A stretch of DNA of 47,172 bases from a virus. A program made the translations under genes and the position numbers. The number at the start of each line of letters is the position of its first letter. Positions within the stretch are counted from its first letter, which is position 1. Shown in pieces: positions 2,926 through 47,172 of the stretch. The notes below the pieces were generated by a model. The model did no database searches. It was not told the DNA's origin and saw nothing but the letters and a program-made list of their open reading frames with translations. The stretch spans positions 1 to 47,172 of the IMG/VR virus record IMGVR_UViG_3300047172_000014; one strand, given 5' to 3'.

Positions 2926-3635
2926 TGGAGGAGTTACTTTTAAAAGTTACTGATTTTTGTTATAGAGGATTGATATTTAAGTGTTCTTTTGGTGTTCTTA
3001 ATAAAGAAAAGACTCTTTATAAAATTAATATTAATAAACCTTGTCATCTCGCTTTAACTTATTGTCAATATAATATATATGACACTCTAATAACTTCATA
3101 TCCTGCTGAAAGCGAACTCGACAAAGAATTCTTCAATTTTATGAAGAACACACTTTATCATAAATTTAAAGATCATTTCCATCTCAAGTATTATAACTCA
3201 AAACCGTATATTGAGGTGACAGATCTTGACAAAATTCCCGCAAATGTCCTTTACAACTTCTGTATAACGTCCAGATTCATAGTTGAGTTTCAAAAAGAAC
3301 TTAAAATTTGGGCGAAGTACAATGATACCGGTTTACATCAACTTGTGTCTTTCATGTGCATGGGTTCTAATGTTTGTCCAGTGACTGGAAAACTTAATCG
3401 GTTGTTTAATGAATATATAAACACCCATCACTGGCCATTCGATCAAAACTCCTGTCCTGCTGTAATTATGTCTGGTGGTTTAGTCTCAAACTTCAATACA
3501 TCGTTCAAATCAAAGCCTACTTCATGCACACCCTCAAATATAATTTGGGGTGATCAATATGCAGCTATGCGATGTTTAATTGGTAAAACACCGAAAGAAA
3601 TCAATGACGAATTTGCAATTCACGCGAAGGCTTGA
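2925..3635 (+). CDS. Protein of unknown function, 236 aa
   Basis: ATG at 2925 overlaps the previous stop (TAATG). The gene is AT-rich. The protein begins MEELLLKVTDFCYRGLIFKC and has many Cys, Tyr and Phe residues. Its C-terminal third contains CMGSNVCPVTGKLNRLFNEY and IIWGDQYAAMRCLIGKTPKE. Two short Cys pairs could bind metal, but the spacing fits no pattern I know. It precedes the class I amidotransferase with a TGATG overlap, so it probably belongs to the same pathway. Function unknown. Confidence 0.65.
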   Translation: MEELLLKVTDFCYRGLIFKCSFGVLNKEKTLYKININKPCHLALTYCQYNIYDTLITSYPAESELDKEFFNFMKNTLYHKFKDHFHLKYYNSKPYIEVTDLDKIPANVLYNFCITSRFIVEFQKELKIWAKYNDTGLHQLVSFMCMGSNVCPVTGKLNRLFNEYINTHHWPFDQNSCPAVIMSGGLVSNFNTSFKSKPTSCTPSNIIWGDQYAAMRCLIGKTPKEINDEFAIHAKA

Positions 3636-4306
3636 TGGAGCTTAAAACGTATTACAGCCACCTTTTTGATTACCCTAAAGGTGCGATGGAACACCTATTT
3701 TCAGAAGTTTATGGTCTAACTAGGGTTACAGATCCGAAAGATGCTCAAATCATCATCTGGAATGGTGGCGCTGACATCGGTACTGAGATTTATAATGCTC
3801 AGACAATTGTTCCAGGTGTGCCTTTCAAAATGTCAAGTCGTGACGAGGAAGAAATCGAGCTTTTTAATCGTTTTAAGAACTCTCCTGACATCCTCAAGCT
3901 CGGTATTTGTCGCGGTGCTCAGCTTCTTTGCTGTCTTAATGGTGGCAGACTTTGGCAAGATGTTAATAAGCACGGTTATGATCATGAAATGATTGATCTA
4001 ACAACTAATGAAGTTTTGACTGTTACATCTACACACCATCAACAAATGTATGTGGACCACTGCGAAAATGGAAAAATTATCGGCATAGCTAATTGCTCTA
4101 CTATAAAATATGGTTTTCCTATCGGTCGTTATAATGTTACAAATTCAGAAAAAATAAGTCGTGGAACTGACGTTGAAATTGTGTGGTACAAAGACACTAC
4201 CACTCTTTGCATTCAGGGACATCCTGAATACGTACCCAATTCTCGTTTTGCAGATTACACTTTTGAACTCATTGAAAGGTGTTGGAATGACAGACAGACT
4301 ACCTGA
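3635..4306 (+). CDS. Class I glutamine amidotransferase-like hydrolase (peptidase C26/PuuD type)
   Basis: The 223-residue protein matches the class I amidotransferase fold. The nucleophile elbow reads LGICRGAQLLCCLNGGRLWQ with Cys92, and the His-Glu part of the triad is in GHPEY (His196, Glu198). The context after the elbow (GGRLWQDVNKHG) resembles gamma-glutamyl-GABA hydrolases, which cleave gamma-glutamyl amides. In this operon it could release ammonia from glutamine or trim gamma-glutamyl-linked intermediates. I chose ATG at 3635 over the TTG at 3632 because TGATG is the local junction style. Activity is inferred from family; the substrate is unknown. Confidence 0.88.
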   Translation: MELKTYYSHLFDYPKGAMEHLFSEVYGLTRVTDPKDAQIIIWNGGADIGTEIYNAQTIVPGVPFKMSSRDEEEIELFNRFKNSPDILKLGICRGAQLLCCLNGGRLWQDVNKHGYDHEMIDLTTNEVLTVTSTHHQQMYVDHCENGKIIGIANCSTIKYGFPIGRYNVTNSEKISRGTDVEIVWYKDTTTLCIQGHPEYVPNSRFADYTFELIERCWNDRQTT

Positions 4307-4628
4307 AATAGGTGACACAGTTATAATTCGTGGTATTGTTATAGATGATAGATCGATTAAAACGAATTTTCCTGACAGCATCAAGATTGTTTGTTTAGAC
4401 GCTACGATTTCAGATGATTCAACTTTTTGGGTTAATCGTAAAAATATTATGGAAGTAATACCAAAGCCTTGGGAGCCTAAACCAGGCGATGTAGTTTTTC
4501 ACAAAGATTATTCAACACCTTATGTTTTAATTCATATTTTTCAACATTTTGCATTTATTATATCAAATACACCTAATGCCGTTCCTTATGTTGTGTTCAC
4601 TTCTGATTTAAGAAAAGAAAAGATTTAA
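4287..4628 (+). CDS. Protein of unknown function, 113 aa, in the amidoligase operon
   Basis: I chose ATG at 4287 (MTDRLPEIGDTVIIRGIVID) because AAAGGTG lies just upstream; it overlaps the previous gene by 20 bases. The frame extends further upstream, but only inside the amidotransferase gene. The pattern of short beta strands with Gly-Asp turns (IGDTVIIRG, KPGDVVFHKD) suggests a small beta-barrel. The stop overlaps the next start as TAATG, which ties it to the class II amidotransferase. No family is recognised. Confidence 0.7.
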   Translation: MTDRLPEIGDTVIIRGIVIDDRSIKTNFPDSIKIVCLDATISDDSTFWVNRKNIMEVIPKPWEPKPGDVVFHKDYSTPYVLIHIFQHFAFIISNTPNAVPYVVFTSDLRKEKI

Positions 4629-5695
4629 TGTGCGGCCTTATTGGTGCTGCTGGCACAATCACCGACGATGTTCGAAATGCTTTTACCGAACTTTTGTTGA
4701 TTGATGTTGTTCGCGGTCATCACTCAACTGGTGTTGCAGCCATCAAACGATTTGATAACAGCTTTGATGTACGTAAGGCGCCCATTGCATCACCAATCTT
4801 CATTGGAACCAGTCTTTATCAAGAATGGGTTCAAATGACAGATACCAAGGTTCTTATAGGCCACAATCGATACGCAACTGTTGGTGACAAGACTGTTGAG
4901 AATGCGCACCCGTTCGAATTTCCTGAACTAGTTGGTGCTCACAACGGCACCATTGACAAGTGGTCCCTGAAGAAGCTTCCGAATTATGCAAAGTTTGATA
5001 CAGACAGCCAAGCAATTTATGCCAATATCTCTGACACCAGTCTTAAAGAGACACTTTCGCATTTGACTGGTGCGTGGGCTTTGACTTGGTTCGACAAGAA
5101 GAACAACACAATAAATCTGATTCGCAACAAAGAACGTCCGCTTTTCTATGCATACTCAGAAGACCGCAAGACTCTTTTCTGGTCCAGCGAGTCGGACATG
5201 CTTGAGTGGATTACTACTCGACACAACTTCAAGCTTTACGGCGACGGAGTGTTCTCTTGTGAAGAAGATTTACATCATCGTTGGACAGTTCCTGAATTTG
5301 ACGAAGTGTTTGAGAAACCTGTTTGTTCAATGGTTGAAGGTTATAAATTCGAATCCATTGTGACTAAAAGTAGCAATAGCTACGGAGTCACATATCATTG
5401 TGACACCGGAACTTTAAATTCACTGCCTTTTAAGTCTCAAAACACTAATAAAACGGATAAAATTGACACGTCTAAATTTCGTCCGCCTTACAAAAACGCT
5501 TACAACAAGGTTCTTTCAAAGTCGGAGTTTATTAGTCTGGTCAATCACGGCTGTGTTTTTTGTGAGGATTGTAGTTCTGAGTGGGGCGACTTTATCTTTC
5601 CCTTGAAAGATGACCTAAGTGGTCGTAGTCTTTATATTTGTGAAGATTGTTATAATGACGACGACGTTTACGAACTCGTTAAGCAATCACTCTAG
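4628..5695 (+). CDS. Class II glutamine amidotransferase with a C-terminal cysteine cluster
   Basis: The 355-residue protein begins MCGLIGAAG, the N-terminal nucleophile class: after methionine removal Cys2 attacks glutamine and releases ammonia. The Ntn fold is supported by GHNRYATVGD and VGAHNGTID, the usual substrate-binding motifs. The last 50 residues carry Cys309, Cys312, Cys315, Cys338 and Cys341 (CVFCEDC and ICEDC), probably a zinc ribbon, which is unusual for this family. No synthase domain is fused, so ammonia would pass to a partner, most likely one of the ligases downstream. Function is strong by motif; the partner is inferred. Confidence 0.92.
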   Translation: MCGLIGAAGTITDDVRNAFTELLLIDVVRGHHSTGVAAIKRFDNSFDVRKAPIASPIFIGTSLYQEWVQMTDTKVLIGHNRYATVGDKTVENAHPFEFPELVGAHNGTIDKWSLKKLPNYAKFDTDSQAIYANISDTSLKETLSHLTGAWALTWFDKKNNTINLIRNKERPLFYAYSEDRKTLFWSSESDMLEWITTRHNFKLYGDGVFSCEEDLHHRWTVPEFDEVFEKPVCSMVEGYKFESIVTKSSNSYGVTYHCDTGTLNSLPFKSQNTNKTDKIDTSKFRPPYKNAYNKVLSKSEFISLVNHGCVFCEDCSSEWGDFIFPLKDDLSGRSLYICEDCYNDDDVYELVKQSL

Positions 5696-5710
5696 AAGGA
5701 ATGTAGAATA

Positions 5711-6535
5711 TTGAATATTATGATTGGAGCTGACCCTGAACTTTTTATGAAGCACCCCGACACCGGAGACTTTGTGTCTGCTCACGACCGGATTCCGGGA
5801 ACCAAAAAGGAACCACATAAGGTTCCATTCGGTGCAATCCAAGTAGACGGAACTGCTTTGGAGTTCAACATTGATCCGGCAAATTCCGCCGACGAATTTA
5901 CTCGGAACATCCTTAATGTTAAGGAAACAATTACAAACTATGTTCCCGGCTACAATGTTGTTGCTGAGCCTGTTGCCACTTTCAAACCGGACTATTTCGA
6001 CTGGGACATTCCCCCTATTGCCAAGGAGTTGGGATGCGACCCCGACTACAATGCGTACACTTTGATGGTCAATCCGCGACCCAATCCGGGAAATCGTCCA
6101 ATTCGTACTGGTGCGGGTCACATTCACATTGGCTGGACTGAAAATGAGGATGTTTTTGACGACAAGCACTTCGCTGTGGCGGCAAAAGTCGCCCGTCAAA
6201 TGGACTATTATTTAGGCATTCACAGCCTTTTGTGGGATTCCGACACTACTCGACGTAAACTGTATGGTCAAGCGGGTGCGTTCCGCCCGAAACCGTACGG
6301 AGTGGAGTACAGAACACTGTCCAATCGGTGGCTATCAGATCCTCATCTGATTCGTTGGGTCTACAATCAAGCTTTCTACGGCACTAAGATTGGTTTTATG
6401 TTCAATCTCTGGGCTGAAAATACCTGGGCTGAAACAGCCAAGAATATAATCAATAATAATCTTCTTGATTGGGAAAAGAGCTATCCGGCTCTTTCCAACT
6501 ACGCAAATTACGCGGAATCAATGGAGGTCGCATAG
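5711..6535 (+). CDS. Carboxylate-amine ligase, phiEco32-like COOH-NH2 ligase type 2
   Basis: The 274-residue protein contains GADPELF near the N-terminus, DGTALEFNID, the metal-binding-type strand GAGHIHIGW and VEYRTLSNRW. These are the landmarks of the glutamine-synthetase-fold amidoligases first noted in phiEco32-like phages. Such enzymes join a carboxylate to an amine using ATP. I favour the TTG at 5711, 10 bases after AAGGA (5696-5700); the in-frame ATG at 5720 is 19 bases away. It follows the class II amidotransferase by 15 bases. Substrates are unknown. Confidence 0.88.
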   Translation: MNIMIGADPELFMKHPDTGDFVSAHDRIPGTKKEPHKVPFGAIQVDGTALEFNIDPANSADEFTRNILNVKETITNYVPGYNVVAEPVATFKPDYFDWDIPPIAKELGCDPDYNAYTLMVNPRPNPGNRPIRTGAGHIHIGWTENEDVFDDKHFAVAAKVARQMDYYLGIHSLLWDSDTTRRKLYGQAGAFRPKPYGVEYRTLSNRWLSDPHLIRWVYNQAFYGTKIGFMFNLWAENTWAETAKNIINNNLLDWEKSYPALSNYANYAESMEVA

Positions 6536-6538
6536 TAA

Positions 6539-7174
6539 ATGGCACGTCTTAAATTAGGTTATGATAATATTACAGACGCTAGAAGCAAACTTGAAGGTAC
6601 ATATTGTTTATATCGGAATAAGGCTGTTTGTATTAGAATGATCTATCATACTGGAGGAGAAGAAAATCTTGACAATGGTGATTATATAGCTAAAGCTACT
6701 TACATTGAAAGTGGAAAATCGGCTATATTTCCTATAAATGATCCAGAGTTTAATTGCTCTGATTATAATCTTGGTTATTATAGTCGGAGTGGTAAAGCTG
6801 CTTGGTTTTTTAGATCTCCCGCTAAACAGTGGCAGCAAGGTTTAAAGACTAATCAACTGTCTTCTATTTCTAGTAAGTATGGTAAAGACGCTTTTGTAGT
6901 TAATATTAATGTAGGTCTGGCCCAAATGTTAGAGAATCGTTATGATTATATAGCACCTTCACTAGAGTTTCTTAAGTCTGGGGCACTAGAAACCGTTCCA
7001 TTTCATCGTAACTTTGCAATGAGTTATGAACCGATTCATGAAGACTATCTTCTTGAGTACAAAGGCGCTATCTTCGGGTTTACTAAAGATTTTGAAAACA
7101 TTGAAATAAAATCAGGTTTTCAACATCTTAGAGAGTCTTTAAACGAGGTTATTCGAATGAGGATGGCTGAATGA
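6539..7174 (+). CDS. Protein of unknown function, 211 aa, between two ligases
   Basis: ATG at 6539 follows a GGAGG about 11 bases upstream. The protein starts MARLKLGYDNITDARSKLEG, is soluble and rich in Tyr, Phe and Ser, and has an internal SGKAAWFFRSPAKQWQQGLK segment. The C-terminus is helical and charged (FQHLRESLNEVIRMRMAE). Its stop overlaps the next start (ATGATG). It is fixed between two amidoligases, so it may be an acceptor or accessory protein. No family is recognised. Confidence 0.7.
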   Translation: MARLKLGYDNITDARSKLEGTYCLYRNKAVCIRMIYHTGGEENLDNGDYIAKATYIESGKSAIFPINDPEFNCSDYNLGYYSRSGKAAWFFRSPAKQWQQGLKTNQLSSISSKYGKDAFVVNINVGLAQMLENRYDYIAPSLEFLKSGALETVPFHRNFAMSYEPIHEDYLLEYKGAIFGFTKDFENIEIKSGFQHLRESLNEVIRMRMAE

Positions 7175-8214
7175 TGCAGTTAAAAGCGTTTCCTGGTGTT
7201 AAACTTGAAGAACAATTAGTAAATCAAGTTGGAAACCATTTTGAACTGAAAGATAAAGATTACTTTGGTGTTGAAGTGGAACTTGAAGGCTATAATATTA
7301 TCACAAAAGCGATCGATATTTACAAATATTGGTCGCCTCATAATGATAATTCTTTACGAGCTTTAAAGCCAAACTCTCAAGCCGTTGAGTACGTTTTGAC
7401 TAAGCCTTTAAATTTAGTTAAAACTCGAACGGCTGTCAGGGAACTTTACAAATTTCTAAACAGTCCAGATGTTAAAGTTGTTCCGTCTTACAGAACTTCA
7501 ATACATGTTCATGTAAACTGTTTAATGGAGACTGTACGAACAATTTCTAATTACATTACACTTTGTGTTATATTCGACGAGCTTTTCGTCTCTCAGAATG
7601 GTTCAACCCGAATTGGTAATAATTTTTGTCTCAGGTCTCGTGACGCTGAGGGACAGATCATCAATGCTATCTCTTCAATTAAGTCGTATGGTAATTTCAA
7701 CAACTTGCATTCAAAATATCGGTACAGTTCAGTTAATCTTGCTAGCCTCAATAAATATGGTACTATTGAGTTCAGATCTCTTGAATGTACAACAAATTAT
7801 AAAAGAGTTATCAACTGGATTGAACTTCTTCAGCAATTGAAGGAAAATGCACGAAACTACGCTGATCCTCGTGAAATTATTGCTGAATTCAGCCAATTAG
7901 GCGTTGTACAATTCACTATGAGGCATTTAAAGTCTTTTGCTTATAAGTACATTTTAGTTCCTGAGTTTGACGTTATGATTCACAATGGTATGAGGCTCGC
8001 TCAAGATTTTGCGTACTGCTCTGACTGGACACCTTATAAAATTGGTACCAGATCAACTATTAATCCTATGAACCCACCAGCACCTTTAACTTGGGATGAA
8101 CTTTTAGTGAATGCTCAACAACCTAACATTCAACCCGATTATCCTGAAATCGACCATAACGATTTTTTTGAAGAAGATGAGAATCTTGAAGAAGATGAAG
8201 AGTATAATGAATAA
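7171..8214 (+). CDS. Putative amidoligase (Amidoligase_2 type)
   Basis: The 347-residue protein has the core motifs of the amidoligase family: FGVEVELEGYN (Glu35, Glu37), HVHVNC (His112, His114, Asn116) and IEFRSLEC. These map to the glutamine-synthetase-like metal and nucleotide site. It is only distantly similar to the ligase at 5711, so the operon holds two separate COOH-NH2 ligases. The C-terminal 30 residues are strongly acidic (EEDENLEEDEEYNE), which could mediate docking. Either of the two ATG codons at 7171 and 7174 could be used. Confidence 0.85.
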   Translation: MMQLKAFPGVKLEEQLVNQVGNHFELKDKDYFGVEVELEGYNIITKAIDIYKYWSPHNDNSLRALKPNSQAVEYVLTKPLNLVKTRTAVRELYKFLNSPDVKVVPSYRTSIHVHVNCLMETVRTISNYITLCVIFDELFVSQNGSTRIGNNFCLRSRDAEGQIINAISSIKSYGNFNNLHSKYRYSSVNLASLNKYGTIEFRSLECTTNYKRVINWIELLQQLKENARNYADPREIIAEFSQLGVVQFTMRHLKSFAYKYILVPEFDVMIHNGMRLAQDFAYCSDWTPYKIGTRSTINPMNPPAPLTWDELLVNAQQPNIQPDYPEIDHNDFFEEDENLEEDEEYNE

Positions 8215-8944
8215 ACAAATTTGGATCTACACTGGTGGTCGCCTTTCAAATGGTGCTAAGGCTCTTTGCAGTTTTCCAGGATTCCTGCGATTAAAGTCTA
8301 ATAAATTTTATAAGGTTTTAGAAAAAGACATTGTTGTAAATTGGGGGGTTACATCACATTTTATGGTGGGGAAAAATATCAAAAACCTTTCATCTGAGGT
8401 AAAAATTGCTTGTAATAAGTTAGAAACTTTTAAAACTTTGGCATTTTCAAATATTAGTACAGTTGACTGGACAACTAAGCCTGAATTTGCTAAGAACTGG
8501 AATAGCACTGTTGTTGTTCGAAATAAGTTGACCGGCCACTCAGGTGACGGTATCGTGATTGTGGAAAAAGATGAGCCAATTCCAATTGCACCTCTTTACA
8601 CTCGATACATATACAAAGTGGTTGAATATCGTGTTCATGTTGTTAATGGAAAGGTAATTGACACCTGCAAGAAAATTCGTGATCCAGCTCGTACACCTAC
8701 AGATTGGAAAGTTAGATCACATAAGAATGGTTTTATATTCACTCGTAATAGTGTGATTCCTAATATCGGAAGAAATCAAATAGCTATTAACACTATTGAA
8801 GCTTTAGATTTAGATTTCGGTGCTGTTGACATTATAGAAGACAAAAACGGTAAATTTTATGTTCTCGAAGTAAACACCGCGCCGGGTCTTGAAGGTAAGA
8901 CCGTTGAACTGTACGCGGAGGCGTTTCGTGGTCTTGCCGTCTAA
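8207..8944 (+). CDS. ATP-grasp ligase (RimK-like)
   Basis: The 245-residue protein carries the ATP-grasp signature. The strand-and-loop RNKLTGHSGDGIVIV (about residues 105-119) forms the nucleotide lid, and the Mg-binding C-terminal motif is FGAVDIIED followed by VLEVNTAPGLEG. Enzymes of this fold activate a carboxylate as acyl phosphate and ligate an amine, thiol or amino acid. I chose ATG at 8207 (MNKQIWIYTGGR), which overlaps the amidoligase stop. The N-terminal pre-ATP-grasp domain is short. With the two amidoligases and two amidotransferases it suggests a peptide or amide product. Confidence 0.9.
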   Translation: MNKQIWIYTGGRLSNGAKALCSFPGFLRLKSNKFYKVLEKDIVVNWGVTSHFMVGKNIKNLSSEVKIACNKLETFKTLAFSNISTVDWTTKPEFAKNWNSTVVVRNKLTGHSGDGIVIVEKDEPIPIAPLYTRYIYKVVEYRVHVVNGKVIDTCKKIRDPARTPTDWKVRSHKNGFIFTRNSVIPNIGRNQIAINTIEALDLDFGAVDIIEDKNGKFYVLEVNTAPGLEGKTVELYAEAFRGLAV

Positions 8945-18851: not shown

Positions 18852-19036
18852 TTCTTCTAATCGCATTCATTACATTTCTTAGTAGTACAAAGATAGAGCC
18901 AATGCATTTGATGGGTATCGCACCGTCCATGGAAATTTGTCAAGATCAAGTGAATAAGTTAACTGCCAAGGCAGAAGCTGACCCTCAAGTTGAAGGTTAC
19001 GTGTTTCAATGTATTGTAGTGCCCACTAAAACCTAA
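18848..19036 (+). CDS. Small secreted or membrane-anchored protein, 62 aa
   Basis: It overlaps its neighbours at both ends (ATGA and TAATG). The N-terminus MILLIAFITFLSSTKIEP is a signal peptide or anchor. The mature part holds two cysteines (MEICQDQ and YVFQCIVV) that could form a disulfide in the periplasm. Function unknown; small secreted phage proteins of this shape occur in many genomes. Confidence 0.65.
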   Translation: MILLIAFITFLSSTKIEPMHLMGIAPSMEICQDQVNKLTAKAEADPQVEGYVFQCIVVPTKT

Positions 19037-20904
19037 TGAATGATTATCAAAAATACATCGCTTACAGTCGATACTCTCGATGGCTTGATTCTGAAAAACG
19101 AAGGGAAACTTGGGAAGAGGTAGTTAAACGCTACTGTGACTGGATGTTTAATCATGTTGGTGCAGAAGTACCGATTGATTGGGCTGAGTTAGAGAAGGCA
19201 ATTGTTGATCTAGAAGTAATGCCTTCTATGCGTTGTTTAATGACTGCTGGTCCCGCACTTGATCGAACACATGTTGCTGGTTATAATTGTGCGTACTTGC
19301 CAATTGACAGCACACGGGCATTCGATGAAACTATGTACATCTTGCTCTGTGGTACTGGTGTTGGATTTAGTGTCGAACGTAAATACATCGATCAATTACC
19401 AGTCATCGGAAACACTCTTAAAGAGACACCAGTTGAAATTGTAGTCCCCGATTCAAAAGAAGGTTGGGCAATTAGTCTCAGGCATCTTATCGATCACCTA
19501 TATGAGGGTCGAGTTGTCAAATGGGACTTGTCTAGACTTAGACCTGCGGGAGCCAGACTCAAGACTTTCGGAGGACGAGCGAGTGGACCTCAACCACTTG
19601 ATGAATTATTTACATTCATTAGTACTTGCTTCAACAAAGCTCAAGGACGAAAACTAACATCTTTAGAGTGCCATGACATTATGTGCAAGATTGCTGACGT
19701 TGTTGTCAGTGGTGGTGTTAGGCGGTCAGCAATGATTTCATTGTCTGATTTTGAAGACTCCAAGATGAGAGACGCAAAACATGGAGAATGGTATGTCAAC
19801 AATCCCCAGCGAGCACTATCTAATAACAGCGCTGTGTACTTGGGACGACCCGATAACGGAGACTTTCTTCGAGAGTGGCTCGCATTGTACGAAAGCAAAA
19901 GTGGGGAAAGAGGCTTATTTAATCGCGAAGCATCTCGCTCCCAAGCTGGTCAAAATGGACGTCGCAACACAGATTTTGACTTTGGCACAAATCCATGTTC
20001 TGAAATTATTCTTCGACCAAATCAATTCTGTAATCTTTCAGAAGTCATCGTGCGAGCTGGAGATAATTTTCAGACCTTGGCAAGAAAAGTTCGACTTGCT
20101 ACAATACTCGGAAGTGTTCAGTCCACGCTCACTAACTTTAAATATCTTCGCTCCTGCTGGAAGCGCAATACAGAAGAAGAGCGCTTACTGGGAGTCAGTC
20201 TCACCGGACTTTACGATAACGAAATAATTTTAAACGCTAAAATTTTAGGTGACTTAAAGGAGATAGCAATTGCTACAAATAAAAAGTACGCTGAGTTGCT
20301 TGGGATTCAACCTTCTGTCGCTATCACTTGTGTTAAACCTTCCGGTACTGTCAGCCAGTTGGTGGACAGTGCTAGCGGCCTTCATCCTCGCCACAGTAGT
20401 TACTACATTAGAACTGTACGAGGTGATAAAAAAGATCCGATCACCCAGTTCTTGATCAATCAAGGTGTTCCTAATGAACCTGATGTAATGAAACCAGACC
20501 ATACTGTTGTCTTTTCTTTCCCTCAAAAGAGTCCTAAAAAGTCTGTACTTAGGTCTGAACTAACAGCCATCAGTCATTTAATGGATTGGAATTTAATTCA
20601 AGAGTACTGGTGTGAACACAAGCCTAGCGTAACGATTAGTGTTCGTGAAGACGAGTGGATGGGTGTTGGTGCTTATGTGTACGATCACTTTGACATATTG
20701 TCTGGTGTGAGTTTTCTTCCTTACAGCGAACATACTTATCGTCAAGCACCTTATCAAGAGTGTACGGAGGATGAGTACAATGACTTTGTTAATCGAAGCC
20801 CTAAGTTCATCGATTGGTCTAAGTTTAAAGAGTACGAAACTGATGACACAACCACAGGAAGCCAAGAATACGCCTGCTCAGCAGGATTCTGTGAAATCAT
20901 TTGA
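19036..20904 (+). CDS. nrdJ: Class II (adenosylcobalamin-dependent) ribonucleotide reductase
   Basis: The 622-residue protein follows the monomeric B12-dependent RTPR pattern. It has SMRCLMTAGPALDRTHVAGY, NCAYLPIDSTRAFDE, CGTGVGFSVE, the radical-site strand NPCSEIILRP with NQFCNLSEV, KPSGTVSQLVDSASGLHPR and a C-terminal redox pair (YACSAGFCEII). It makes deoxynucleotides from ribonucleotides without an oxygen-dependent subunit and needs a host cobalamin supply. It is shorter than the Lactobacillus enzyme (739 residues). ATG 19036 overlaps the previous stop. Confidence 0.93.
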   Translation: MNDYQKYIAYSRYSRWLDSEKRRETWEEVVKRYCDWMFNHVGAEVPIDWAELEKAIVDLEVMPSMRCLMTAGPALDRTHVAGYNCAYLPIDSTRAFDETMYILLCGTGVGFSVERKYIDQLPVIGNTLKETPVEIVVPDSKEGWAISLRHLIDHLYEGRVVKWDLSRLRPAGARLKTFGGRASGPQPLDELFTFISTCFNKAQGRKLTSLECHDIMCKIADVVVSGGVRRSAMISLSDFEDSKMRDAKHGEWYVNNPQRALSNNSAVYLGRPDNGDFLREWLALYESKSGERGLFNREASRSQAGQNGRRNTDFDFGTNPCSEIILRPNQFCNLSEVIVRAGDNFQTLARKVRLATILGSVQSTLTNFKYLRSCWKRNTEEERLLGVSLTGLYDNEIILNAKILGDLKEIAIATNKKYAELLGIQPSVAITCVKPSGTVSQLVDSASGLHPRHSSYYIRTVRGDKKDPITQFLINQGVPNEPDVMKPDHTVVFSFPQKSPKKSVLRSELTAISHLMDWNLIQEYWCEHKPSVTISVREDEWMGVGAYVYDHFDILSGVSFLPYSEHTYRQAPYQECTEDEYNDFVNRSPKFIDWSKFKEYETDDTTTGSQEYACSAGFCEII

Positions 20905-43409: not shown

Positions 43410-44824
43410 CCTGTTGAAGTTTCACGAACAATCTCAAACTGATCGTATTCCCTTTTTGTTTTGTCAGTTATACCGTTATTCTCATCGATCAAACGACGAC
43501 CAGTAATCTTGTCGAAAATCTTGGTAAGACCCCAGACAAGAGCGTCAACTCGGTCGGGAGACCCATTAGAGATTGATCGAATGTTGTCAATGCTGAACAT
43601 GCACATTTGATCTTCTAATTTGTCAAAAGTGCCACAATGATGTACACGACCCTGCTCGTAGAGAGCTGAAATGGGTTCCGCTCGAACGATCTTCCCGCGA
43701 CTGGCGTGAACCAGTTCAACAGGAACAGCTCGATCAACAGCCTTTAAAGTGCTCATCACCATGTCACCGCCTTGATTCTTTTCAGCGATGATTTTGTCTG
43801 CTGACCACTTACGATAAAGACTTATTGCCTTTCGGGCCCAATCTTCAGGTGATCCACGAACTGTTCCATCTTCAAGAACATACCCGCGTGCGTAGCCATC
43901 TTTGTCGCGAGCTAGACCGACAACAACAATTCCATGTTCGTCTGAACCTTCGTTATTGCTGACGGCGGGGTCAACAGCGACAAAAACGCGTTCGAGATCT
44001 TTTGGAGGTTCTCGAAGTCTACTAGAGTCAATCGCTTCACGGTTCCACAAAGCTCCTGGGATGTCACCGAGTATTTCACCTTCAAGCTCTTGTCGGCCAA
44101 GTCTCGTTCCCCCGTACCTGTCGTACAGTTGCTTTACTGTGTTTGAAGCAAGGTTGGCTTTATTGTCTAGTGTACTTCCACGCGTTACGAATGTGTCCGA
44201 GTCTGACATTAGTTTCTTGATTAGTGGAACTGGTCGCGGGGTTGTGGTCACAAGCGCCTGCGGGTGAAGACCGAGACGAAGACCAAATTGAAGCTGGTCC
44301 CACGTTTCCTGCATATAGCGAAACTTTGCCAACTCGTCCACCCAGGCAGCATGATGCTGAGGACCGCGAAGCTGATCCGGCTCCGTTGCATTGTACACCC
44401 AGGCTTCAACACCGTTAGGCCAAGTTAGACGACGGTTGGTCGGGCTCCACTCGGGACGGAACTCTTTGGGATGACAAGCAAGAATACCGCTGTCACCAAG
44501 AACCATAACGTCCCGTGCATCAGCAGCAGTCTCGGCCACCAGTGCAAGTCGTTTCCAACCACTCGGCGGTGATGCTAAAGGACTGGACCCAGTGACGTTC
44601 TCACGAATCCACTCAGACCCCATTCGTGTTTTACCGAAACCACGCCCCGCCAAAACCAACCAGGTGTTCCAGTTGCCTTGTGGTGCCCGTTGATTTTCTC
44701 TAGCCCAAAATGCCCAGTGCCATCTAAGTTCAGCTAGCTCCGCCTCCGTTAGGGAAGCTAACAACGTTGTCCGTTCCTGTTCGTTTAGCGAGGCTAGATA
44801 TTCTGCTGGTGAAATCGGCAACAC
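43397..44824 (-). CDS. Terminase large subunit
   Basis: The 475-residue protein has an ATPase domain with Walker A VLAGRGFGKTRMG (about residues 57-69) and a Walker B-like AAWVDELAKF. Its RNase-H-type nuclease domain has acidic residues in FVAVDPAVSNNEGSDEHGIV, a helper IIAEKNQGGDMVM and the final Asp in SPDRVDALVWGLTKIF. It packages DNA through the portal and cuts concatemers. It overlaps the small-subunit gene by 95 bases. Confidence 0.94.
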   Translation of the reverse strand: MLPISPAEYLASLNEQERTTLLASLTEAELAELRWHWAFWARENQRAPQGNWNTWLVLAGRGFGKTRMGSEWIRENVTGSSPLASPPSGWKRLALVAETAADARDVMVLGDSGILACHPKEFRPEWSPTNRRLTWPNGVEAWVYNATEPDQLRGPQHHAAWVDELAKFRYMQETWDQLQFGLRLGLHPQALVTTTPRPVPLIKKLMSDSDTFVTRGSTLDNKANLASNTVKQLYDRYGGTRLGRQELEGEILGDIPGALWNREAIDSSRLREPPKDLERVFVAVDPAVSNNEGSDEHGIVVVGLARDKDGYARGYVLEDGTVRGSPEDWARKAISLYRKWSADKIIAEKNQGGDMVMSTLKAVDRAVPVELVHASRGKIVRAEPISALYEQGRVHHCGTFDKLEDQMCMFSIDNIRSISNGSPDRVDALVWGLTKIFDKITGRRLIDENNGITDKTKREYDQFEIVRETSTGWMA

Positions 44825-45251
44825 TTTCCTTTATATTCTGTTCATGTCGTATTGCTTCACCGTCGGGACCACTAATCTCTTGTCGTTCCCGCCAGAGTGC
44901 AATTGACTTACCTGCAAGCTCGATAGCTTTGAGACATGCGTTAGGGTTGTCTTGTTGAGTTTCCTCGATTATTGTCATCAACTTGCTAAGCAGATAATCA
45001 GCCTTGACTTCCAACTTTTTTGTTCTTTCTGCTAAACGATGAGAAATTTCCGCCACCACAAGAGGATGATCCATCAACTCAATTGCTTGGCGTCTTGGAT
45101 CTTTACATTTGTATAAAGATGCCTTTACCGCTTCGGTTGCATTTCCTGTGACCATGAAGTGGTCAACAAAGCTGGACATCTTTGCGGTAAGTTTAATTCC
45201 TTTATTATTGTCGCCCGGAACCAAATGTCCGCGTCTTTTAGATAAGTACAA
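44730..45251 (-). CDS. Terminase small subunit
   Basis: The 173-residue protein has an N-terminal helix-turn-helix-type region (LTAKMSSFVDHFMVTGNATE, then AVKASLYKCKDPRRQAIELM and HPLVVAEIS), as in many small terminases that recognise the packaging site. Helical and disordered parts follow. The start is TTG at 45251, five bases after GGGGTG; the only later in-frame ATG, at 45179, falls inside the conserved segment. It is the first gene behind the late promoters. Confidence 0.85.
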   Translation of the reverse strand: MYLSKRRGHLVPGDNNKGIKLTAKMSSFVDHFMVTGNATEAVKASLYKCKDPRRQAIELMDHPLVVAEISHRLAERTKKLEVKADYLLSKLMTIIEETQQDNPNACLKAIELAGKSIALWRERQEISGPDGEAIRHEQNIKESVADFTSRISSLAKRTGTDNVVSFPNGGGAS

Positions 45252-45321
45252 CGTGACACCCCAGCTGCGTGGCGGGTTTGAAAGACAGAAGAAAACAGTT
45301 CATATCCACCTCCATTATGTT

Positions 45322-45350
45322 ATTATAACATTTATCTAGACAGAAGTCAA
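45322..45350 (-). promoter_or_regulatory. Late sigma70-type promoter, proximal
   Basis: On the minus strand: TTGACT (45350-45345), a 17-base spacer and TATAAT (45327-45322) in the context AAATGTTATAAT. Transcription would begin near 45315 and reach the terminase genes after a leader of about 65 bases that includes GGAGG (45313-45309). The -10 context is shared with the distal promoter. Confidence 0.8.
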
Positions 45351-45497
45351 TTTAATAATTTAAGGTGAGTATATGTTACATTTAAATGTTCTATTAAGGT
45401 AACTACTTTAGATGTATAACACTTGATTGTTTAATACAACTTAGTTTCGTCTCAAGCTGTTACACTCAAGTACCTTATCTGTATTCCTTATAGAGAT

Positions 45498-45526
45498 ATT
45501 ATAACATTTCCCCGACTCCATGTCAA
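45498..45526 (-). promoter_or_regulatory. Late sigma70-type promoter, distal, full consensus
   Basis: On the minus strand: TTGACA (45526-45521), exactly 17 bases and TATAAT (45503-45498), a complete match to the sigma70 consensus, again within AAATGTTATAAT. Followed by ATCTCTATAAGG, nearly the same as downstream of the promoter at 2389. A perfect consensus promoter would be strong from the start of infection unless repressed. Confidence 0.85.
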
Positions 45527-45560
45527 TTAAAAAGAGACATTTCCATGTAATTATTTTATG

Positions 45561-45590
45561 TTACACCCCGCTTCCTTGATTTTTTATAAA
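45561..45590 (+). promoter_or_regulatory. Possible rightward promoter for the structured RNA
   Basis: TTACAC (45561-45566), an 18-base spacer and TATAAA (45585-45590, overlapping an alternative TAAAAT at 45587). Transcription would begin around 45598, exactly where composition changes from about one-third to about 60% GC. A 9-bp inverted repeat TTATTTTAT/ATAAAATAA (45551-45559, 45586-45594) flanks it and could be an operator. Match to consensus is modest. Confidence 0.35.
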
Positions 45591-45599
45591 ATAACCAAG

Positions 45600-46540
45600 A
45601 TCGCTCAGGTCACGTCAAGCCTCACGCGCGATACATGGTCCCCCCATACCACCCCAGGAAATCTAATAGGGCTGATAGAATTACTGAATTGAGCGGAAAG
45701 CTGGAGCCGAGTGGTATACCCGGTGGTCAGTGAGGCGCTGCCTGGCTGGCTCCACACCGATCAGAGGAGAGCTCCGTGAGTAGGAAAAACCCTAGGCGTC
45801 GGCGCATGGCCGCACAGGCGGCACTACTCCGCCGCATCATCGCAGAGCATGGCCCTGCGCATGACGACAGCCACCTGCTCCAGCAGGGGCGAGTCGGCTC
45901 TAGCATGAGATCGATCGACTTCCTGCCGCCGTCTATTGCGCGGTCCATCGCGTATCGATCAAGCACCTCTCCACCGGGGTTTGATTCCTCCCCGAATGTA
46001 CCCATCCCTGGCCGTGTGTACGAGGGTCGCGCGAAGGGCAAGGAGATCATCACGCGCGAGTAGGTGCTTGACGGGGGCTAGTGCTCCCGATACAGACGAC
46101 AGACATAGCTAACTAGGTGTCCGAAAGGACCCGACCGAGGTGCAGTCACCGTCAGGTGACAGTCCGCAACCATCGGTGTCACGCGCGGGCCAGTACCCGA
46201 CCGCTCAACGGACACGGCAACGTGGTCATTGGGTCTAGGCAACAACCTACCTATCGCGTGGCACTATTGGGCCTCGGTGTCAGACAGACCGACGGGAAAG
46301 TGCAAGTCAGGGGAAGCCTGAAAGCGCCAGGATACGTCGGCATGTCATGCGTGCCATATAGGTGACGTTTAGGTCTAGCACACCCGAACCAATCATCTTA
46401 TGGGCGACCACGCATGGCTTGCAGGAAGCTGTCGGAAAACACTCCTCAGATATACAGGCCTTTGTGGCTCGGGGGTGTCTGCAATGGGCCCTAAGCTCCC
46501 CGTTGCGGTTGTGACACGTTAGTGTTGCGATAGGCGGCCT
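45600..46540 (+). ncRNA. Candidate large structured noncoding RNA (GOLLD/ROOL-like)
   Basis: This stretch is about 60% GC between AT-rich flanks and folds extensively. Helices seen by eye: GCCTCAC/GTGAGGC (45619-25, 45730-36); ATACCAC/GTGGTAT (45646-52, 45711-17); TGGAGCC/GGCTCCA (45702-08, 45748-54); CCTGC/GCAGG (45874-78, 45883-87); perfect 10-bp TCAAGCACCT/AGGTGCTTGA (45959-68, 46062-71) enclosing TCGCGCG/CGCGCGA (46027-33, 46053-59); CGGGGGC/GCTCCCG (46072-78, 46083-89); GTCC-GAAA-GGAC (46119-30); GTCACC/GGTGAC (46145-50, 46155-60); an 11-bp helix (46175-85, 46255-65) enclosing CGGG/CCCG, CACG-GCAA-CGTG and TAGG/CCTA hairpins; and CGGGGG/TCCCCG (46470-75, 46497-502). Some helices imply pseudoknots. 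A phage-borne, tRNA-proximal RNA of this size recalls GOLLD and ROOL; exact ends and family are not proven. Confidence 0.6.
45776..46063 (+). CDS. Questionable GC-rich open frame within the structured RNA, 95 aa
   Basis: GTG at 45776 lies five bases after AGGAGA, an excellent ribosome site, and the frame starts MSRKNPRRRRMAAQAALLRR. Third positions are GC-rich, unlike most phage genes. Against it, the frame lies inside a region with long-range RNA helices, its stop codon is part of the 10-bp helix (46062-46071), and no domain is seen. It could be a real small basic protein, possibly encoded within the RNA, or an accident of composition. Confidence 0.3.
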   Translation: MSRKNPRRRRMAAQAALLRRIIAEHGPAHDDSHLLQQGRVGSSMRSIDFLPPSIARSIAYRSSTSPPGFDSSPNVPIPGRVYEGRAKGKEIITRE

Positions 46541-46542
46541 TC
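46517..46542. repeat. Flanking inverted repeat, left arm
   Basis: Matches 46958-46983 in reverse complement at 25 of 26 positions. Together the arms enclose 415 bases with two small genes. The arm also contains GCGGCCTTC (46534-46542), which can pair locally with GAAGGCCGC at 46556-46564. Confidence 0.9.
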
Positions 46543-46564
46543 GACCAACAAAGGAGAAGGCCGC
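46534..46564 (+). promoter_or_regulatory. Hairpin carrying the ribosome binding site of the next gene
   Basis: GCGGCCTTC (46534-46542) pairs perfectly with GAAGGCCGC (46556-46564). The 13-base loop exposes AAGGA, while the final G of AAGGAG is in the stem, and the ATG begins at the very next base (46565). The same 5' strand can pair instead with the distal arm at 46958-46966. This suggests translation control by alternative RNA pairing. Confidence 0.6.
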
Positions 46565-46687
46565 ATGATTTTGCTCAACACATATAATGACGTTCAAGTG
46601 TGGAGGATCAAATCTAACTACAAACTCAGTTTTGAGAATGCTTACTGGGCTTTTCGCTCAGTCGAGCTATATCAGACGGGGTTTTGA
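46565..46687 (+). CDS. Small early protein, 40 aa
   Basis: ATG at 46565 follows AAGGAG (46551-46556). The product begins MILLNTYNDVQVWRIKSNYK and ends ENAYWAFRSVELYQTGF. No membrane span or domain is visible. It was identified by its strong ribosome site and the spacing to the next gene, and it is the first gene of the rightward block. Confidence 0.6.
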   Translation: MILLNTYNDVQVWRIKSNYKLSFENAYWAFRSVELYQTGF

Positions 46688-46691
46688 AAAG

Positions 46692-46910
46692 ATGACTATT
46701 TTCCGCTCCATCGTGCTGTACAAAGACAGCACCAACGCTCGGATACAATGCTATGGACCATTTGTGTGCCCTGACACAGCCACTGAATTTATGGATAGGC
46801 TGCCTGTACCCCTGAAAGGCGGCAGAAAAGTATTGCGTACTTTGGTGTCCTATACAGGTGATAAATCCGCGCTCGCGAGCGAAACCATCTTGCGGGAGCG
46901 TCGTACGTAA
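46692..46910 (+). CDS. Small early protein, 72 aa
   Basis: I chose ATG at 46692 (MTIFRSIVLYKDSTNARIQC), which follows the previous stop by four bases; the frame extends upstream only through the preceding gene. The protein is basic (PLKGGRKVLRTLVSY; ETILRERRT) and probably forms a small alpha/beta fold. Its codons include the 12-base palindrome CGCTCGCGAGCG at 46870. Function unknown; early host-takeover proteins are often of this kind. Confidence 0.6.
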   Translation: MTIFRSIVLYKDSTNARIQCYGPFVCPDTATEFMDRLPVPLKGGRKVLRTLVSYTGDKSALASETILRERRT

Positions 46911-46920
46911 TCGCTACCTA

Positions 46921-46941
46921 ATGTCGCTCCAAACGCGACAT
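46921..46941 (+). other. Intergenic hairpin after the 72-residue gene
   Basis: ATGTCGC (46921-46927) pairs perfectly with GCGACAT (46935-46941) around a seven-base loop. No T run follows, so it is not a classic terminator; RNA processing or 3'-end protection is possible. It lies in the 124-base gap before the gene that crosses the contig ends, with the inverted-repeat arm and tandem hairpins. Confidence 0.6.
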
Positions 46942-46957
46942 AAACATCAATCACCCT

Positions 46958-46983
46958 GAAGGCCGCCTATCGCAGCACTAACG
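46958..46983. repeat. Flanking inverted repeat, right arm
   Basis: Reverse complement of 46517-46542 with one mismatch. It begins with GAAGGCCGC, the same 9-mer found in the ribosome-site hairpin at 46556-46564, and runs into the tandem repeat at 46968. Confidence 0.9.
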
Positions 46984-47009
46984 CTGCGTATCGCAGCACT
47001 AACGCTGCG
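46968..47009 (+). repeat. Two tandem 21-base hairpin units
   Basis: The 21-base unit, TATCGCAGCACTAACGCTGC plus a final G, occurs twice head to tail. Each unit folds as CGCAGC-ACTAAC-GCTGCG. The pair stands 25 bases upstream of the ATG at 47035, in the leader of the first large early gene. It may be a binding site, a processing signal or an RNA stability element. Confidence 0.9.
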
Positions 47010-47034
47010 TATGGAACCTAAAGGGAACCTAGTT

Positions 47035-47172
47035 ATGACCAAGATCAATCTGCCTGAAACCGCTGAAAAGCTGCCTTTCTCCCTCGTTCTGGACACGAAG
47101 GAGAACATTAAGAAGGGCCAGGACGCCATTCGCGTCACTGTCCTTCAATTGGATCTCGCGATCCATAACAAC
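47035..47172 (+). CDS. 5' part of the early gene that continues at base 1
   Basis: ATG at 47035 (MTKINLPETAEKLPFSLVLD) follows AAAGGG (47021-47026). The frame stays open to the end of the contig and continues without interruption from base 128 of the start region, because the last 127 bases repeat bases 1-127. The full product is about 230 residues; its function is unknown. Confidence 0.85.
   Translation, partial: MTKINLPETAEKLPFSLVLDTKENIKKGQDAIRVTVLQLDLAIHNN
47046..47172. repeat. Terminal redundancy of the contig, right copy
   Basis: Identical to bases 1-127. See the left copy for interpretation. Confidence 0.95.

Follow-up and report, generated by a model that had tools for sequence, protein, structure and literature searches.

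The DNA analyzed here, referred to as the window, is a virus record of 47,172 bases with direct repeats of 127 bp at both ends, indicating a circular phage assembly. The region of interest (45600-46540) is bordered by the small terminase gene terS (44730-45251, minus strand; PF03592) on one side and by plus-strand genes on the other, where a gene spanning the circle junction (47035-682) corresponds to phrog_1448. No isolated phage was matched in blastn searches that used the window, L010 and L024 as queries, and the most similar large terminase of an isolate shares 53% identity. Relatives were collected as 80 viral contigs with related terminases and a further 41 found by a small-terminase profile. 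About 18 of the fetched contigs carry the same arrangement at the same place, in the order two minus-strand TTGACA/T-17-TATAAT promoters, leader, Arg-rich ORF, structured stretch, GUUA hairpin and small gene. The GTDB species genomes searched contained no bacterial match, and scanning viral contigs for strict motifs of the core or the leader brought up no contig beyond those already known. Elsewhere in the genome, a peptide- or protein-modifying set is clustered at 3632-8944 on the plus strand, with glutamine amidotransferases, a COOH-NH2 ligase, an amidoligase and an S6-glutaminyl-transferase-like gene, and a B12-dependent (class II) ribonucleotide reductase gene lies at 19036-20904 (plus strand).

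The 5′ side of the locus contains the following features:

45322-45350, minus strand: second copy of the terS promoter, TTGACT-17-TATAAT, from the sequence
45498-45526, minus strand: consensus sigma70-type promoter to terS, TTGACA-17-TATAAT with TG before the -10 box, from the sequence
45576-45609, plus strand: conserved 5′ element TTGATTTTTTATAAAATAACCAAGATCGCTCAGG, where the rightward transcript presumably starts, from an alignment of about three dozen relatives
45634-45647, plus strand: conserved C-run hairpin element CATGGTCCCCCCAT, in a TTCATG.nCCCCCC context in most relatives
45776-46063, plus strand: gene for a small Arg-rich protein of 95 amino acids, GTG start with AGAGGAG upstream, from homologues and codon pattern

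One or both minus-strand promoter copies are found in nearly all close relatives, and these two near-perfect sigma70 promoters are predicted to drive the terminase operon. In the distal one, the spacer includes a conserved GGGGCGGGGGAAATG-like stretch. Many relatives have a similar motif, TCCCGCC, ahead of the rightward 5′ element, and its presence in both places suggests a common regulator. The leader (45576-45775) is conserved in sequence, and its folding is not unusual. Its 5′ element, for which a promoter role appears plausible, has the family consensus AAAATnCTGATTTTTTATRWARY..AGGYGACC. Across 45576-45647 the T6 run of this consensus is joined by a C6 run (TTCATGnnCCCCCC) in about three dozen phages, a wider spread than that of the RNA core described below. 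This longer element, which lacks a -35 box of the sigma70 type, is a candidate phage-specific promoter.

Homologues of the Arg-rich protein occur at the identical location in about 16 relatives, with the consensus MARLNPKRRR; conservation is poor past the N-terminal part (RRR..KQA), and the protein matches no family in Pfam, PHROG, NCBIfam or PDB. Substitutions are in excess at third codon positions: over the first 38 codons, the window and L003 differ at 15, 7 and 28 sites in positions 1, 2 and 3, respectively. The original prediction had named coding conservation of this frame, with no conserved base pairing, as one of the signs against an RNA. Judged by its codon pattern and homologues, 45776-46063 is clearly a real protein-coding gene, and strong paired-base conservation adjoins it. 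More distant phages (L102, L104, L106 and L109) show a related layout upstream of terS in which the Arg-rich ORF is another one (M..TRNERRKRAKAR); they carry longer GC-rich stretches, which are possibly a second RNA family.

The region had drawn attention as a putative giant RNA of about 0.9 kb, structured throughout. The underlying jump in GC content was confirmed, from 33.3% (45421-45480) to 63.3% (45781-45840) and 65.0% (46141-46200), with 43.3% for the whole genome. Structure across the entire stretch did not hold up: compared with dinucleotide shuffles, the mean plus-strand folding z in 14-15 phages was strong for the 3′ part alone (-4.6), and weak for the leader (-1.2) and the ORF (-2.0). 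The window itself gave -4.3, +0.8 and -0.1 for these parts, and the 3′ part ranged from -2.5 to -7.0 in 15 of 15 phages. Thus, the 0.94 kb of 45600-46540 are three parts, and a single RNA of this length was ruled out by the coding gene in the middle and the leader without unusual folding. A perfect 10-bp helix noted earlier is present (45959-45968 with 46062-46071, 93 nt apart) and has no counterpart in relatives; since its 5′ arm also lies inside the conserved protein gene, it reads as chance or as private to the window phage.

The 3′ part contains the following elements, all on the plus strand:

46103-46531, plus strand: structured non-coding RNA with approximate ends, from the conserved CATAGCUAAC to the 3′ hairpin; from folding z, tetraloop bias, covariation and covariance model match
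46119-46130, plus strand: P2 hairpin GUCC-GAAA-GGAC, in 15 phages, with a U-A / G-C double change
46134-46140, plus strand: P3 5′ strand ACCGAGG, with two partners; from covariation and folding
46173-46177, plus strand: local P3 partner UCGGU (hairpin state); from covariation and folding, not significant in the 8-sequence subset
46177-46185, plus strand: P4 5′ strand UGUCACGCG; 14 of 14 phages, z 7.9
46255-46263, plus strand: P4 3′ strand CGCGUGGCA, pairing with the P4 5′ strand
46272-46278, plus strand: distal P3 partner CCUCGGU (long-range state); from covariation and folding, model probability 0.96 in the window
46372-46384, plus strand: P9 hairpin, family loop UAGCAA; 18 phages, z 8.6, with unsupervised loop enrichment
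46439-46478, plus strand: 3′ domain stem ACACUCC...GGGGUGU, by eye
46508-46531, plus strand: 3′ hairpin with GUUA core; 13 phages, z 2.9

Several stems of the original prediction reappear here, namely the GAAA-capped P2, a GCAA-capped stem (CACG-GCAA-CGUG, 46213-46224) and the long helix that encloses hairpins, whose strict core is P4 and which covaries in all 14 relatives scored. P2, P3, P4 and P9 are kept across 14-18 related phages through many compensatory changes. The helices were picked by eye before the statistics, and the cross-phage shuffles used to score them leave shared ancestry in; with this in mind, none of 3000 shuffles matched the P4 pairing and none of 2000 that of P9, where differing stems pair around the UAGCAA loop in 18 phages even though the wrong copy taken in L026 lowered the score. 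In the window, P9 is degenerate, with the loop CUAGCAC and just 3 bp beside it. The 3′ domain stem reads ACAACCC...GGGUUGU in L003, and the z of the 3′ hairpin is only 2.9 because its arms are alike. An AAAU-loop hairpin (P6) is weakly supported (7 phages, z 3.4). As MAFFT over the full 3′ part misaligns the variable middle, the helices were tested singly. For distal P3 and P4 in an 8-phage MAFFT alignment, 94.4% of cells were paired, a share that fell to 25-51% with an offset of 1-3 columns. Changes on both sides affected 7 pairs vs 2.4 in shuffles. A shifted gap in the alignment kept P2 from being counted.

When hairpin loops were scanned for enrichment with no motif set in advance, UAGCA turned up in 15 phages, where 1.1 were expected, and UUCG, GCAA and GAAA tetraloops were enriched on the plus strand. 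GNRA/UNCG hairpins numbered 27 on the plus and 4 on the minus strand, and the tallied helices contained 43 G.U positions vs 5 A.C on the plus strand, where a minus-strand RNA would give the reverse. The RNA lies on the plus strand, a call made mainly from the G.U and tetraloop counts: minus-strand folding z was also negative (mean -3.05). Single-sequence folding of the window with fold_strand yielded a z of -2.9 over 46064-46545, and the stretch as a whole scored -2.7. On these sequence comparisons, 46103-46531 is a structured plus-strand phage RNA of about 430 nt.

A first covariance model (R1), with poor structure and all members in training, served solely to list members. A model built from eight phages recovered held-out L012 (4.7e-9), L026 (3.9e-4), L048 (2.9e-3) and the window (0.1), all at syntenic sites, and missed held-out L003, L036 and L013. 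Over 378 kb at E<=5 it found nothing besides syntenic sites.

The P3 5′ strand is complementary to two strands at the outer ends of P4, so the two pairings are mutually exclusive. Elsewhere in the family it reads GCCAAGG, GCCAAUC, ACUUUGG, ACCUAGU or GCCGGAG. The partners are near-identical, typically CCUUGGU followed by GA and ending in a G.U or A-U pair, with the distal one about 80-125 nt beyond the local one. Both pairings follow the changes of the strand, each matched in 0 of 5000 cross-phage shuffles. For the local pairing, double-sided changes are absent from the subset of the 8 most similar phages, so its covariation rests on the divergent members. When either fold was forced in ViennaRNA, the hairpin and long-range states lay 0.4-5.5 kcal/mol apart; the distal state is preferred in the window (probability 0.96), L010, L012, L018 and L001, and the local state in most others. 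The distant L100 shows the same pattern, CCAAGC with two GCUUGG partners, a triple that is not unlikely by chance in such a scan. This strand swap would make the RNA look like a molecular switch.

Transcription and the surroundings of the 3′ end were examined through the following features:

46068-46096, plus strand: probable promoter of the RNA, TTGACG-17-TACAGA, right behind the ORF stop; from TTGAC enrichment among relatives
46692-46910, plus strand: downstream small gene of 72 amino acids, ‘FGPFVS’ family; from homologues at the same place in relatives
46971-47009, minus strand: two inverted GUUAGUG hairpin copies before the next gene; about 10 relatives have such copies ahead of the homologous gene

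Of 18 phages, 9 have TTGAC within 110 nt past the ORF, compared with a mean of 1.7 and a maximum of 8 in 2000 shuffles, and 6 of these 9 have TA at exactly 17 nt spacing; the -10 boxes of these promoter-like sites are poor. From the window site, transcription is predicted to begin near 46103, where conservation of the RNA sets in, and the site is probably the RNA's own promoter. There is no intrinsic terminator nearby and no U-run behind the 3′ hairpin. The 3′ end is therefore set by conservation only, and the RNA could belong to a longer mRNA. Within the region of the inverted hairpin copies (46958-47010), positions 46958-46983 form a 26-nt inverted repeat with 46517-46542, at 96% complementarity. 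The 72-amino-acid protein gave no match to family models.

Next, we compared the RNA with known classes. The original prediction allowed either a divergent GOLLD- or ROOL-type RNA or a new class. Rfam searches on 45300-47172 at E<=5 gave no match to GOLLD, ROOL, OLE or HEARO, and in six relatives at E<=1 the sole match was one chance miRNA family, again with none of these four. GOLLD or ROOL identity is thus not borne out, and what stands is the new class: a covarying, ornate phage RNA without an Rfam counterpart, but of only about 430 nt. No match for this RNA or the Arg-rich protein came from Rfam, Pfam, PHROG, PDB or isolate phages. Proximity to a tRNA had been offered as an argument for GOLLD or ROOL, and in the window a tRNA-Leu (1384-1468) does lie about 1.9 kb downstream on the circle; tRNAs were found in 0 of 28 related loci, which extend just a few kb downstream, and the argument was dropped as not conserved. 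A separate idea, that the P3 strand is a group I intron guide strand (one strand, two targets ending in G.U), was rejected for lack of a core match; the Rfam group I intron model gave none at E<=5 in the window or at E<=1 in the six relatives.

Like GOLLD, the RNA is elaborate, large, phage-borne and without known function; unlike GOLLD, many of which are longer than 800 nt (PMC12286853), it is about half as long, lacks an Rfam match at E<=5 and a conserved tRNA linkage, and has a protein gene as neighbor and a two-partner P3 strand. ROOL, often found by tRNA islands and in prophages (PMC12286853), is likewise a complex phage-borne RNA of several hundred nt without known function, whereas the present RNA has no Rfam match and comes from uncultivated phages only, with none in the GTDB species genomes searched. 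The resemblance to the remaining systems concerns single traits. OLE and HEARO are large structured RNAs with an associated ORF, a combination also seen here, but there is no Rfam match and the Arg-rich protein matches no family model. Lambda N/nut and HK022 put share the small Arg-rich protein and RNA hairpins heading a presumed early operon, and differ in having a far smaller RNA and no detectable homology; by eye, no boxA was recognized here. Riboswitch and attenuator helices also use one strand with two mutually exclusive partners; here, however, neither state holds a terminator or RBS, and the switch sits inside a multi-helix RNA with an apparent promoter of its own.

The explanation that we favor, at somewhat better than even confidence, is that 46103-46531 represents a new family of two-state structured phage RNA with its own promoter, probably acting in trans; the promoter, trans action, two-state function and protein partner are inferred. 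Transcription of the RNA would start just behind the Arg-rich gene, ahead of the other rightward genes (presumed early) and in the direction opposite to the terminase operon. The P3 strand would pair either locally or with the distal strand across P4. Because the predicted energies are nearly equal, binding of a partner could select the state; this partner might be a second molecule of the RNA or a protein, for which the neighboring Arg-rich product is a possibility. The RNA might then act in trans as an RNP or decoy and, early in infection, alter the expression of host or phage genes.

A cis-acting intercistronic element is a possible but less probable explanation. The RNA would then be part of an early mRNA, and its alternative P3 helices would control message stability or translation for the flanking Arg-rich gene or for the two genes that follow. 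Its position between two small plus-strand genes with no terminator behind, the order of the downstream genes kept in relatives and a two-partner strand typical of leader regulators all fit. However, the partner strands are both clear of any RBS or terminator, more than 100 nt separate the end of the RNA from the next conserved gene, a promoter-like site directly precedes the RNA, and the hairpins with UAGCAA loops or tetraloops point to a globular fold.

A bolder proposal, which we consider rather unlikely, is a new class of RNA machine, in which a guide-like strand would exchange between the two near-identical partners at the P4 ends in a large two-state RNP of early infection, driven by the Arg-rich protein or by RNA-RNA assembly. 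Antitermination appears quite unlikely. Here the Arg-rich protein would be lambda-N-like, reading the UAGCAA and GUUA/ACUAAC hairpins as boxB-like sites and modifying RNA polymerase. A small basic protein (N-terminal RRR..KQA) does head the presumed early operon, and boxB-like hairpins with conserved loops and variable stems are seen; but the protein matches no family, lambda-N profiles included, an ornate RNA of 430 nt is far above any known nut or put site, no boxA was recognized by eye, and no terminators were found nearby. We find it improbable that P3 mediates domain swapping between copies in an RNA nanocage or homo-oligomer. GOLLD and ROOL do form RNA-only homo-oligomers, GOLLD a 14-mer nanocage (PMC12286853), and this large, elaborate, phage-encoded RNA has a strand whose two near-identical partners would allow pairing in trans, but no Rfam model matches, the RNA is shorter and it has no tRNA linkage. 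A DNA element (pac/cos site, origin or protein operators) adjoining the small terminase gene, with inverted repeats in both orientations, is scarcely credible and for 46103-46531 is contradicted by the strand asymmetry (G.U vs A.C, tetraloops) and by compensatory changes despite unrelated stem sequences, whereas for the GUUAGUG repeats and the leader it could still apply.

To our knowledge, large structured phage RNAs such as GOLLD and ROOL are few and of unknown function. Our results add an RNA family absent from Rfam 15, present in at least 14-18 phages, in which the letters have widely diverged and the pairing is kept. It brings a prediction open to test, namely that one strand adopts two exclusive states, and the gene beside the RNA encodes an obvious candidate for a protein partner. 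The two-state core would thus offer a direct handle for mutational tests.
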